This document shows, one piece after another, positions 9,466 through 50,888 of a stretch of DNA of 50,888 nucleotides. Every line of letters starts with the position of its first letter. The stretch's first letter is position 1. Made by a program: the position numbers and the translations under genes. Under the pieces are notes generated by a model that ran no database searches, was not told where the DNA came from, and worked only from the letters and a program-made list of their open reading frames with translations. The DNA is from Candidatus Alcyoniella australis. GTDB taxonomy: Bacteria > Lernaellota > Lernaellaia > JAVCCG01 > Alcyoniellaceae. Location of the stretch: contig JAVCCG010000106.1 in the NCBI GenBank assembly GCA_030765605.1, positions 1 to 50,888 of the forward strand, written 5' to 3'.

Positions 9466-10986
9466 ATGTCTATTCGCGCCTGCGCACTGGCGGCGACTAT
9501 CGTCGCGGCACTGTTGTTCTCAGCTGCTTTCGCGGCTGACGATCCGCAGGCGCTGTACCTGCAGGGAGTGGAGCTGTTCCACCTCGAGCAGTGGCAGGGG
9601 AGCCTGGATCAGCTTGAGGCCGCGCTGGTTGCGACCACGCCGGCAGCGGCCTTTGCCCCCGACGCCACGTTCAAGGCCGCGGAGTGCCGCTATCGCCTCG
9701 GCGACCTCGGCGGCGCGCTCGAGGGATTCCGCGCCTATGTGGCGCACTATCCGCTGGGCGCCAACCGCCGGGCCAGCGAGCTGCGAATCGAGGCCATCGA
9801 GAGCAGCCTGGGCCGCTCGGATTTGGCCCCGCCCATTGTTCCCGGCGTTCTGGAGCAGCTTAACGCGGTGCGGCTGGAGCGAATTCGGGCCCGCGACTGG
9901 CCGACCCTCGAGGCCCGGCTGCTCGAGCTGTGGCGCGCCGGATTCAACGCGGTGGTGCTCGATGTGAGTCTACAGCCCGGAGCGGAGGGCCACGCACTGT
10001 TCGCTCCTGCGGAGCGCGGCGGGCTGTACTTTCCCGCACGCAACGCGCCGCTGGTTGGCGACCTGACCACGCGGCTGGTGCAGATCTGCCACAAGTACGG
10101 CCTGCGCATCTTTGCCCGAATGAGCACCCTGGACAGCCGTTGGCTGGTCAGCGCCGAGCCCGGTGTCGCCGACGTACGCTTCGACCTGGAGTCGGGCAAG
10201 CTGATGCGCGGCCAGCGGCTCGACCCTTTCAGCGAGCGCGCGTTGCAGCTACTGGAGGGAATGTACGAGGATCTGGGGGCCACGGGAGTCGACGGCGTGC
10301 TGCTGGCCGACGATTGGCGGATCGCCGAGCTCGAGGGATTCGGCCCGGCGGGCCTGGCCGCCTACAACGAGGCCTACGGCGAGCAGCTCGAACCGGGCTC
10401 GTGTTTTCTCGATCAAAGCCACGACGCCTATGGCCGAATCCACGTGGGGCGCTATTCCGAAGCCTTCGGCCGTTTCGCCGAGCTCAAGTCGCGACGGCTG
10501 ATGCAGATCGCCACGAGACTGCACGCTGCGGCGCGGCGCAACAACCCTCGATGCGGATTGATCCTCGAGCTCGACCGCTCTTGCCTGATCGATCCCCAGA
10601 GGGCCAAGGCACGCCTGGGGCACGATTTTGGCCGGGCTGTCCAGTCCGAAGCCGACTACCTGCTGATCAGCTTGCACCACCGACGGATGCAGGCGGAACT
10701 GACCTTGACGGGCCAGCAGACCTTTAGTCTAATGCGACGAATTATCGAGCTGGGCGTCTCGCGGATCGAGCGCCCCGGACGTCTGGCGATCGAGCTGCAA
10801 CTCGTGGACCAGGCTGCCTTCAGGCCGCTGCCCGGGTGGGAGCTCGAGGCGGAGCTGTTTGCAGTGCGCTCGCAAAAGCCGGTGAGTGTGCTGCTCACGC
10901 CATACTGGCCGGGAATAAAATGGCATGATCTGGGCCGGCTGCTCGGGAATCTCCCCGAGCCCTCGAAGATTAAGGAAGATCAATGA
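9466..10986 (+). CDS. Exported TPR protein with PgaB C-terminal (GH153-like) hydrolase domain
   Basis: A 506-residue protein with a cleavable-type signal peptide (about residues 1-23, AAFAADDP). A tetratricopeptide-like region follows (about 25-130: ALYLQGVELFHLEQWQGSL, then FKAAECRYRLGDLGGALEGF). The main domain (about 140-440) resembles the C-terminal hydrolase half of PgaB. Matching blocks are GLYFPARNAPL, a DLTTRLVQICHKYGLRIFA segment, RLDPFS, YEDLGATGVDGVLLADD (acidic pair 282-283) and AYNEAYG. In PgaB this half cleaves partially deacetylated poly-N-acetylglucosamine; the deacetylase half is absent here. The stop overlaps the next ATG (ATGA), so it is translationally coupled to the selenoprotein gene. 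The domain assignment rests on motif order and is not tested by alignment. Confidence 0.65.
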   Translation: MSIRACALAATIVAALLFSAAFAADDPQALYLQGVELFHLEQWQGSLDQLEAALVATTPAAAFAPDATFKAAECRYRLGDLGGALEGFRAYVAHYPLGANRRASELRIEAIESSLGRSDLAPPIVPGVLEQLNAVRLERIRARDWPTLEARLLELWRAGFNAVVLDVSLQPGAEGHALFAPAERGGLYFPARNAPLVGDLTTRLVQICHKYGLRIFARMSTLDSRWLVSAEPGVADVRFDLESGKLMRGQRLDPFSERALQLLEGMYEDLGATGVDGVLLADDWRIAELEGFGPAGLAAYNEAYGEQLEPGSCFLDQSHDAYGRIHVGRYSEAFGRFAELKSRRLMQIATRLHAAARRNNPRCGLILELDRSCLIDPQRAKARLGHDFGRAVQSEADYLLISLHHRRMQAELTLTGQQTFSLMRRIIELGVSRIERPGRLAIELQLVDQAAFRPLPGWELEAELFAVRSQKPVSVLLTPYWPGIKWHDLGRLLGNLPEPSKIKEDQ

Positions 10987-12200
10987 AACGCAACTGGCTG
11001 ATTCAGCTGATGTTGGTTTTCACCGCGACGCTGTTCGCGCTGAGCTGCGGCGGACCCCAGGCAGGGACGCAGACGCCCAAGTCGAGCAAGGGCGTGGCGA
11101 TCGTCTTTACCTCGTTCGTCACGGCCGAATACGGCCCCTGCGGTTGAAAGGGTAATCCTTCTGGCGGTCTTGCCAGAAAAGCAACGCGGATTAACGAACT
11201 AAAATCGCAGGGAGTGAACCCGATCGTCCTGGACGCGGGAAACCTGCTGTTCAAGTCCAGTAGGGCGATGACAGAAAATCGCGACAAGTCCCTGGCCCGG
11301 GCCCAGATGATCTGGGCCGCGACGAGCGCCATCGGACTCGACGCGTTCTGCCCCGGATCGATGGATTTTCTCGGCGGCCTGAAGCTGCTCGAGGGTTTTC
11401 GCGACCAGGGGAAGGTGCCGTTCCTCGCGGCCAATTTGAGCTATCCCGACGGCAAGCCGTTTGGCGACAAGCGCTACGTGGTGCTCGAGCGCAACGGCGT
11501 ACGGGTCGGGATCTTCGGACTGGCCGGCAAATCGATCTTCAGCGAGCGAATGGACCTGATGATCGACCTCAAGGTCGGAGATCCGCTTGAGGCCGCGCGC
11601 CCGATCGTGCGTGAGCTCGAGGGCAAGTGCGACGTGATGTTGCTGCTCTCCGAGATGGACAAGGCCGAGATCGAGCGCTTCTGCGAGCTGTTTCCGCAGG
11701 TCAAATTCGTGATTGCAGGCAACCACGTGGTCGGATACTCCAGCCGCGCGCGTCGCATGGACGACACTTACGTGATGCAGGGCATATCGCGGGGCAAGAG
11801 TCTGTCGCGCCTTGATCTGAACGTGGTCAACGGCAACTTCGACCTGCGCGACTCCCGCGAATACGACGTGGCCAAACGCAGCTTCGAGCGTTACGACCGC
11901 GACTACAAGCGGATTATGGAGCAGACCTCAGGCGAGGATCCGGAGGAGTTCTTTGAGAACGACCAGCGCAAGCTAGCGCGTTACCGCCGGGTCAAGGAGA
12001 GCCGCGAGAAGTACACGCAAATGCTCGAGCAGCTTGATCCGAACCAGTCGAACTTCGCCGTGGGCACCATCAACCTTGGTAAATCCGTGACCGAGGATGC
12101 GATGGTTCAGGCGTTGATCGACGCCTATGAGCTCAAGTGGAGCTCGGACTACTCGACCGGCGGCAACACCCTGGGCACCAAAGCTCCGGATCCGCACTGA
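10983..12200 (+). CDS. UshA-like metallophosphoesterase-family selenoprotein (UGA at 11145 read as selenocysteine)
   Basis: The frame starts at ATG 10983 after AAGGAAG and runs to 12200, with a single in-frame TGA at 11145-11147 (residue 55). If read as selenocysteine, the product is 405 residues. It has a signal peptide with a possible lipobox ending at Cys22 (LFALSC). A GPCGU-KGN-SGGLARKA segment puts C53-G54-U55 where relatives of 5'-nucleotidase (UshA) carry P-C-G-C before GGLARR. Downstream come VLDAGNLLF, FCPGSMDF, FLAANLSYPDG, VGIFGLAG and VIAGNHVVGY, all in the order of the UshA fold. The usual D-x-H metal motif at the N-terminus is not recognisable. A SECIS-like hairpin lies 12-31 bases after the UGA. 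I recall UshA-like (seleno)proteins being named in public annotation, which supports the reading. A plain gene call would start at GTG 11214 and lose the signal peptide and CGU. Confidence 0.85.
11145..11178 (+). promoter_or_regulatory. Sec UGA codon and bacterial SECIS element
   Basis: UGA is at 11145-11147. A perfect 7-bp stem follows: TTCTGGC (11159-11165) with GCCAGAA (11172-11178). Its six-base loop is GGTCTT. The loop GGT begins exactly 18 bases after the UGA, as codon +7. From memory, E. coli fdhF has GGU as codon +7 and the same GGUCU apical loop that SelB binds. The E. coli bulged U in the upper stem is not seen here. Confidence 0.85.
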
Positions 12201-12219: not shown

Positions 12220-13497
12220 ATGCAATCATCTGCCGGGCATCGTATTTCGCCGTTGCAGGGGTTCTTATGCGCGCTGCTGATCGCCGTTGGGATCTGCGGT
12301 TGCCCCTCGACGCAGCCTGGGCAACCCACTGCGTTGCCGCAGATGGCTGCGGGCTCGGAGCACTTGATAATTCTTAGCGCCGGCAGCGTACGCGCGATCC
12401 TCGATCCGCAAGACGACCAGGGCCGGTCTCTGGGCGGCTTCGGCCGCCGCGGCACCTATTTGCAACTCACGCGTCAGTCGGGCATCGACCCGGTGGTGCT
12501 CGACGCGGGCGACCTGCTGTTCAGCGCAGCGGCGCTGCCCCGCGACGATAAACGTCGGCGGGCCGATCTCGATCGCGCAGCGCTGATCATCGAGCTTTTA
12601 AACCTCAGCGGCCTGGACGCCTACGTGCCCGGCGAGATCGACATGGCCGCGGGCTGGGAGCAGTTCAGCGCACTGCGCTCCAGTGCGAGCTTTCCGTTTC
12701 TCGCGGCCAACCTGGTCCAGGAAGCGGGCAGCCCGGCCCTCGACGCGTTTGTGGTGATCAACCGCGGTGAAATAAAACTCGGGGTGTTCGGACTGGTCTC
12801 GCCCACGCTGTTTGCACAGACCCCGGCCGTGCTCTACGAGGGTCTGAGCGTCAGCGATCCGGTGACTGCCGGACGCAAGGCGGTCCACGACCTGCGCAAC
12901 CGAGGCGTGGATCTGATAATAGCCCTGACGCACCTCGATCCGGCGCAGCTTGAGACCGTGGCGCGCGATGTACCTGGGATCAACCTGGCCCTGTCCGGCC
13001 ATTCAGCATCAGGGGACCCGCCGTTGAACACTGCGCTGCATGGCCTGCCGGTAATCAGCGCCGGTAGCGGCAACACCCACCTGGCGCGGCTCGACGTGTT
13101 TCTGCTGCCCACAAAGAGCGAGGGCGGCGCGTCGCGGGAATTGCTCGACGGTACCCAGGGCAAGCGGCTGCGGCAAAGCTTTGATGAGGCCAACCGCGAG
13201 CTGCTGCGCATTGAGCGCGACGCGGGCCAAGGGTCGATCGACGATTTTCTCGCCCAAAGACCGGAGCAACACGAGCGCTATGGGCGGCTGCTCGCGCAGC
13301 GTAGCACGGCAGCCGAACAGCTCGGCGCGATCATGGGCCGCGATCACTTCGTGTTCAGCGCGGTGGCGCTGGACCGCACCATCGGCCGTGACAGGCAAAT
13401 CGAGGAGACGATCATGCCCTGGCGCATTGCGCACGCGCCGGATACTATCCCCAACCAGGCCCTGCGGCAGGCGGAGGAAACGCCCCAGGACCTGTAG
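12220..13497 (+). CDS. UshA-like lipoprotein, paralogue lacking the Cys-Gly-Sec motif
   Basis: A 425-residue lipoprotein (signal peptide, lipobox ICGC with Cys28). It aligns without gaps to the preceding selenoprotein over the motif region: P-Q-D-D-Q-G-R-S-L-G-G here against P-C-G-U-K-G-N-P-S-G-G there. It also shares VVLDAGDLLF, YVPGEIDMAAG, FLAANLV, LGVFGLVS and ALSGHSASG. The C-terminal 120 residues are charged and probably helical, as in the neighbour. The Cys and Sec are replaced by Gln and Asp, so it is either a non-redox partner or has a different activity. GGAGG lies 11 bases before the ATG, a slightly long spacing. It follows the selenoprotein by 19 bases, so probably the same transcript. 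Confidence 0.75.
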   Translation: MQSSAGHRISPLQGFLCALLIAVGICGCPSTQPGQPTALPQMAAGSEHLIILSAGSVRAILDPQDDQGRSLGGFGRRGTYLQLTRQSGIDPVVLDAGDLLFSAAALPRDDKRRRADLDRAALIIELLNLSGLDAYVPGEIDMAAGWEQFSALRSSASFPFLAANLVQEAGSPALDAFVVINRGEIKLGVFGLVSPTLFAQTPAVLYEGLSVSDPVTAGRKAVHDLRNRGVDLIIALTHLDPAQLETVARDVPGINLALSGHSASGDPPLNTALHGLPVISAGSGNTHLARLDVFLLPTKSEGGASRELLDGTQGKRLRQSFDEANRELLRIERDAGQGSIDDFLAQRPEQHERYGRLLAQRSTAAEQLGAIMGRDHFVFSAVALDRTIGRDRQIEETIMPWRIAHAPDTIPNQALRQAEETPQDL

Positions 13498-49990: not shown

Positions 49991-50888
49991 ATGTGCGCCT
50001 TAAGGGTCTATCTGCTGCACGCGCCCAGCGTGTACGACTTCCGCGAACGGACGATCATGCAGGGTCCGGTCTCGGACGTGGTCCCCTCGACCCAGGTCTT
50101 CGAGATGTACCCCGTGGGATTCACCGCCCTGAGCGAGCGGCTGAGCACCATGGGCTACGATGTGCACATCAAAAACCTGGCCTTTCGCATGCTTGCCTCG
50201 CCCCAGTACGACGCCGAGGAGGCGATCCGCAAACTCAAACAACCGTTCGCCATCGGCATCGACCTGCACTGGCTGCCGCACTGTCACGGCGCGATCGAGA
50301 TCGCCCGGCTGTGCCGCAAACATCATCCGGGCGTGCCGATCATCTTCGGCGGCATTGCCGCGAGCTACTTCCACGAAGAGCTGATCGGGTACGACTGCGT
50401 GGACTACGTGGTGCGCGGCGACTCGGCCGAGGAGCCGCTGGGCGAGCTGATGTGGAACCTTGAGAAGGGCCGCCCACTCGATCGGGTCCCCAACCTGACC
50501 TGGATCGACCAAACCGGCGCATTGCGCGTCAACGAGCTGAGCCACGTGCCCGCGGGCGTCTACGACACCTCAAACAACTACCTGCACATGTTCAGCCAGT
50601 CGGTGGCGCACCTGAACATCCGCGACGGCATTCCGTTCCTCGACTGGTTTAGCTATCCGATCACCGCGATCATGACCTGCCGCGGCTGCACCCAAAACTG
50701 CATTATCTGCGGCGGCTCGCGCGACGGATTTCGGCAGTACATGGGGCGCGACAAGATCGCCATGCGTCCGGCCGAACAGTTGATCCTCGACATTCGGCGC
50801 ATCGCACGCTACACCAGCGCGCCGATCTTCATCGTTGGCGATTTGCGCCAAGGCGGCGAGAGCTACGCGCGGCAGGTGCTCGAGGCGC
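49991..50888 (+). CDS. B12-binding radical SAM protein, 3' end outside window
   Basis: The frame is open from ATG 49991 to the window end; 299 residues are visible. The N-terminal part (VYLLHAPSVYDFRER, GPVSDVVPSTQVFEMYPVGF, IGIDLHWLPHCHGAIEIARL, IIFGGIAASYFHEELI, DYVVRGDSAEEPL) matches the cobalamin-binding half of the Ta0216-type B12/radical SAM family. The radical SAM cluster is C-x3-C-x2-C in CRGCTQNCIICGG. The reaction is unknown. No clear ribosome binding site is seen. A palindrome TGATTAATCA (49965-49974) precedes it. Confidence 0.88.
   Translation, partial: MCALRVYLLHAPSVYDFRERTIMQGPVSDVVPSTQVFEMYPVGFTALSERLSTMGYDVHIKNLAFRMLASPQYDAEEAIRKLKQPFAIGIDLHWLPHCHGAIEIARLCRKHHPGVPIIFGGIAASYFHEELIGYDCVDYVVRGDSAEEPLGELMWNLEKGRPLDRVPNLTWIDQTGALRVNELSHVPAGVYDTSNNYLHMFSQSVAHLNIRDGIPFLDWFSYPITAIMTCRGCTQNCIICGGSRDGFRQYMGRDKIAMRPAEQLILDIRRIARYTSAPIFIVGDLRQGGESYARQVLEA

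Follow-up and report, generated by a model that had tools for sequence, protein, structure and literature searches.

A predicted heme-less, UshA-like selenoprotein of Candidatus Alcyoniella australis with an fdhF-type SECIS hairpin

The locus described here poses the question of whether an in-frame TGA ends a gene or encodes selenocysteine (Sec). It lies on a contig of Candidatus Alcyoniella australis (JAVCCG010000106.1) that was analyzed over its whole length of 50,888 nucleotides, to which we refer as the window; the features discussed are collected in Table 1. The frame that opens at ATG 10983 contains a single internal TGA, at codon 55, is otherwise open and terminates at a TGA stop at 12198-12200. 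An earlier note on this DNA had described the frame as interrupted only at 11145 and the ATG as preceded by a ribosome binding site, and we see both, the former in the translation and the latter as AAGGA a few bases 5' of the ATG. As the same note had said, a plain open reading frame call begins at GTG 11214, and a start at this position would lose both the signal peptide and the sole redox motif of the protein. The lipobox that the note had proposed is less clear-cut: its consensus is weak (ALSC), while its cysteine, Cys22, is invariant in nine aligned proteins.

Table 1. Features of the locus, in positions of the window
Feature	Position	Strand	Remarks
Upstream gene, TPR and GHL13/PgaB-like protein	9466-10986	+	4-base overlap (ATGA) with the predicted selenoprotein gene
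Predicted UshA-like selenoprotein gene, heme-less short form	10983-12200	+	405 aa, predicted Sec at residue 55
Signal peptide and probable lipobox	10983-11048	+	ends at Cys22 (FALS-C); weak consensus; Cys conserved across the phylum
Predicted C-G-U redox motif (TGC GGT TGA)	11139-11147	+	residues 53-55; predicted Sec codon TGA 11145-11147
Bacterial SECIS hairpin	11159-11178	+	7-bp stem 11159-11165/11172-11178; loop GGTCTT 11166-11171; GGT is codon +7
Tandem paralogue, P-C-G-C/U motif lost (ILDPQDDQGRSLGG)	12220-13497	+	122 bits to NF041198

The GC content at third codon positions is 0.85 upstream of the TGA, 0.36 from the TGA to GTG 11214, which is the segment that holds the hairpin, and 0.84 thereafter, a profile of coding sequence on both sides of the TGA with an extra constraint over the hairpin. 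The profile bears on one alternative to a Sec codon, namely that the locus is a pseudogene, a Cys-type gene whose TGC became TGA by nonsense mutation and whose 3' part is perhaps expressed from GTG 11214. One base change is enough to convert TGC or TGT into TGA, cysteine is usual at this site in the phylum, and a start codon is available at 11214; on the other hand, the codon structure is intact on either side of the TGA, and the downstream start would remove the most conserved motif of the family.

The element downstream of the TGA argues further against simple decay. The perfect 7-bp stem, the loop GGTCTT and the position of its GGT at codon +7, all claimed in the earlier note, were found again (TTCTGGC-GGTCTT-GCCAGAA). 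The likeness to Escherichia coli fdhF, which that note had pointed out, turned out to be exact, as the MG1655 fdhF sequence has TGA, 18 nt and GGTCT, the same spacing and the identical apical loop; the two elements differ in stem sequence, and the fdhF stem is interrupted whereas that of the window gene has seven uninterrupted pairs. The bSECIS criteria are a spacing of 16-37 nt, a loop of 3-9 nt with a G in its first two positions and a stem of 4-16 bp, and the window hairpin, with 18 nt, GGTCTT and 7 bp, falls within each of these ranges; a scan at Rfam gathering thresholds matched no family. With both strands counted, the window contains 1336 TGA trinucleotides, of which no other is followed at such geometry by a GGT loop on a stem of 7 bp or more. 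When the same peptide was resampled with synonymous codons, 0.02% of the draws combined such a stem length with the loop GGTCT, a figure that is approximate, since the codon usage came from automatically picked predicted ORFs of the window. The codons that build the hairpin are rare in the window (TCT, 3% of Ser; AGA, 2% of Arg; GGT, 10% of Gly; CTT, 5% of Leu), and its folding energy by itself is unexceptional (z -0.82). The only other TGA in the window that is flanked by open frames and followed by a SECIS-like hairpin, a weak one of 5 bp, lies at 50572 on the minus strand.

The earlier note had named the Sec machinery as the check to make in the genome, and all of its components are there. 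The host genome, which is 98% complete, carries a tRNA-Sec with anticodon TCA (UCA; 76 bits) and matches to SelA (580 bits), SelB (356 bits) and SelD (386 bits), and the co-occurrence of SelA, SelB, SelD and tRNA-Sec in one genome is that expected for a selenoprotein gene. The SelD of the host (L018, G000:C133:56714-57634) is itself a selenoprotein, whose frame contains a TGA at the canonical Sec position (GAG-U-ACK). As a normal stop codon, UGA terminates 8 of the 31 predicted ORFs in the window, including one that reads as TrmD. This speaks against a reading of UGA as Trp or Cys through a changed code or general readthrough, which would likewise leave the frame open if TGA stands for a residue; the Cys homologues and the SelABCD set point instead to Sec, and we give that reading practically no weight.

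Homologues within the window's phylum show which residue the UGA replaces. They are present in all seven genomes (7/7) and carry the motif PCGC, TCGC, DCGC or, in one of them, PCDC, with cysteine as the usual residue at the site; the sole PCGU among them is that of L031 in genome G001. Identity to the closest homologues is about 30%. In the alignment, residue 55 is Cys or UGA-encoded in the relatives, in agreement with the claim that the UGA falls at the second Cys of P-C-G-C. The PCGU gene of G001 has the hairpin TCTGGC-GGTCTG-GCCAGA at the same spacing as in the window, and in the phylogeny it is the sister, with full SH-aLRT support, of a Cys gene (L030) from genome G002. G001 has SelA and SelB, whereas in G002, which is 99% complete, SelA had no match and SelB none over the cut-off. 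The pair amounts to a natural test of Sec/Cys exchange, the Cys form being found where selA is absent and its Sec sister where selA is present. A third paralogue in the host genome (L037, G000:C101:23721-24392) combines CGC with a C-terminal multiheme (CxxCH) region, so that one genome contains both a long Cys form and a short Sec form.

Beyond the phylum, a scan of genome contigs with a single protein gave no relatives. A DNA pattern scan of genome contigs for PCG-TGA followed by P-x-G-G-L-A, with the UGA fixed, retrieved no fewer than 118 contigs, and 80 of 80 among the matches listed encode homologues of P0001 by blastp. Their sources include Myxococcota, Fidelibacterota (Neomarinimicrobiota), Acidobacteriota and Thermodesulfobacteriota; the heme-less branch is common in the first two. 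Two records stand apart by their labels. BNCN01000006.1 (L059), deposited as Comamonas sp. KCTC 72670, resembles Myxococcus in its motif, in its set of paralogues and, at 9.0 Mb, in genome size, and is probably a mislabelled myxobacterium; the 3.4-kb contig QMSR01000145.1 (L090) of a Thermoplasmata archaeon MAG bears a PCGU gene whose bacterial SECIS closely resembles those of deltaproteobacteria, and is probably mis-binned.

The SECIS element is conserved among these UGA relatives, with compensatory changes. The loop is GGTCT in 59 of 69 distinct hairpins, and the stem bases covary, as in TCTGGC/GCCAGA, CTTGGC/GCCAAG and CTGGGC/GCCCGG. Over the four pairs tested, 237 of 276 cells were paired, against a mean of 191 (sd 4.6, maximum 206) in 2000 shuffles that ignore relatedness. 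Because the GGLA protein motif fixes part of the stem, Cys genes with GGLA were used as a control. GGT stands at codon +7, the third base of which was free in the search pattern, in 108 of 126 Sec genes and in 1 of 12 Cys genes, a small set (Fisher p = 6e-8), and a stem of at least 5 bp occurs in 83 of the 126 and in none of the same 12 (p = 7e-6). The many PCG-UGA relatives, the fdhF-type SECIS at the exact spacing and the complete Sec machinery all run counter to the pseudogene outlined above, which we regard as highly improbable. The reading of UGA 11145 as Sec put forward in the earlier note is thus supported by the machinery, by the Cys/UGA homologues and by a conserved, covarying SECIS, and from sequence comparison the gene almost certainly encodes a selenoprotein of the UshA-like family.

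This family is already known. A GOS survey of 2008 reported it as 'COG0737, UshA-like, CxU' with 76 sequences (PMC2398784), and the curated model NF041198 is listed in a 2026 review (PMC13188914). In the wide sense of that 2008 category, the window protein has the predicted Sec in a C-x-U motif on an UshA-like domain, and it contains PCG[C/U] followed by P-x-G-G-L-A. It matches NCBIfam NF041198, the UshA-like (seleno)protein with PCGU, at 196 bits (E 9e-58, profile 14-377), short of the 275 bits set as the curated cut-off. Common to the protein and the model are the N-terminal domain and the PCGU motif at an equivalent position; the SECIS type is shared with the long members identified here. 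What it lacks is the c554-type heme region at the C-terminus: the match stops before the multiheme part of the profile (about 395-519), and the protein has no CxxCH. The same division runs through the Sec forms, as those of the long class have four CxxCH and a Cytochrome_C554 match and pass the NF041198 cut-off in 2 of 2 tested, while those of the short class have no CxxCH and stay under it in all four others tested (183-221 bits). The similarity to NF049981, UshA-like (seleno)protein family 2, is limited to a weak match over the UshA-like domain (33.6 bits; cut-off 140), and the motif is CxU, not the CxxU of that family; a Pfam search of the window protein found no family. The window gene is a heme-less short form of the family that was published in 2008 and has a curated model.

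What such a protein does is suggested by its fold and by what the fold has lost. The AlphaFold model (pLDDT 90) has a 5'-nucleotidase as its best PDB match (E 2.7e-19). E. coli UshA, Bacillus subtilis YfkN and SoxB likewise have a metallophosphatase-like (5'-nucleotidase/thiosulfohydrolase) fold; the window protein differs from them in lacking the metal-ligand motifs and the long 5'-nucleotidase C-terminal domain and in having the CGU loop. With this fold, and with weak matches to the SoxB and UshA models, the Sec-decoded protein could still be a nucleotidase or SoxB-like hydrolase. Set against this, a search for the dimetal ligands (DxH, GD, GNH[ED], H, GHxH) found SFVTAE, GN and GSMD at the first three sites of the window protein, and the DxH, GNHE and GHxH motifs, absent here, are unconserved in the family, in which PCG[C/U] is kept in nearly all members. 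Phosphoesterase activity is unlikely because the usual metal ligands are gone from both the family and the window protein, and we consider a hydrolase role correspondingly improbable.

The motif itself is one of the pointers to a redox role. Across 38 Sec proteins, no variation is seen at P52, C53, G54, U55, P59, G61, G62, L63 and A64, nor at G86 and G271, the first nine being required by the search pattern. Since the letters of PCGU, P, GG and [YC]T-GC were partly fixed by that pattern, Cys homologues found without it serve as an independent check, and they have nearly the same motif. C53 and U55 sit 8 to 10 residues past the place of the first metal ligand; the invariant P-C-G-U-x3-P-x-G-G-L-A loop comes shortly after the former DxH metal motif. 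We propose that SelB and tRNA-Sec insert Sec at UGA 11145 by way of the fdhF-type SECIS, for which the sequence makes a strong case, and that the product would be exported and probably lipid-anchored, its mature part keeping the 5'-nucleotidase metallophosphatase fold. Given the Sec reading, the C53/U55 pair quite likely works in the cell envelope as a thiol/selenol redox centre, a role suggested by the motif, by the long form's heme region and by the MauE/DoxX genes upstream of related loci.

MauE has a role in disulfide maturation. In 16 related loci (13 in Fidelibacterota, 3 without a phylum name), the UshA-like gene is immediately preceded by a same-strand gene for a MauE/DoxX membrane protein; no MauE gene is present near the selenoprotein gene in the window, and this conserved neighbour is a lead only outside the window's phylum. 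In the window, the tandem paralogue still has a lipobox-type Cys and, apart from the lost motif, the whole domain, and may form a unit with the selenoprotein gene. In the long form, the fused c554-type heme domain would accept or donate electrons; the short form would need separate electron partners, for which the MauE/DoxX protein encoded just upstream in some Fidelibacterota is a candidate. Our tentative suggestion, to which we would give somewhat less than even weight, is that heme-less short forms are a functional class of their own, so far without a curated model, in which a dead metallophosphatase scaffold has become a selenol redox carrier, exported or lipid-anchored. Its electrons would go to partners in the membrane, for instance MauE/DoxX, whereas the long form would rely on hemes of its own. 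Ordinary annotation would cut the window gene short, and genes of the heme-less branch, which score under the cut-off of the curated model, may therefore be overlooked.
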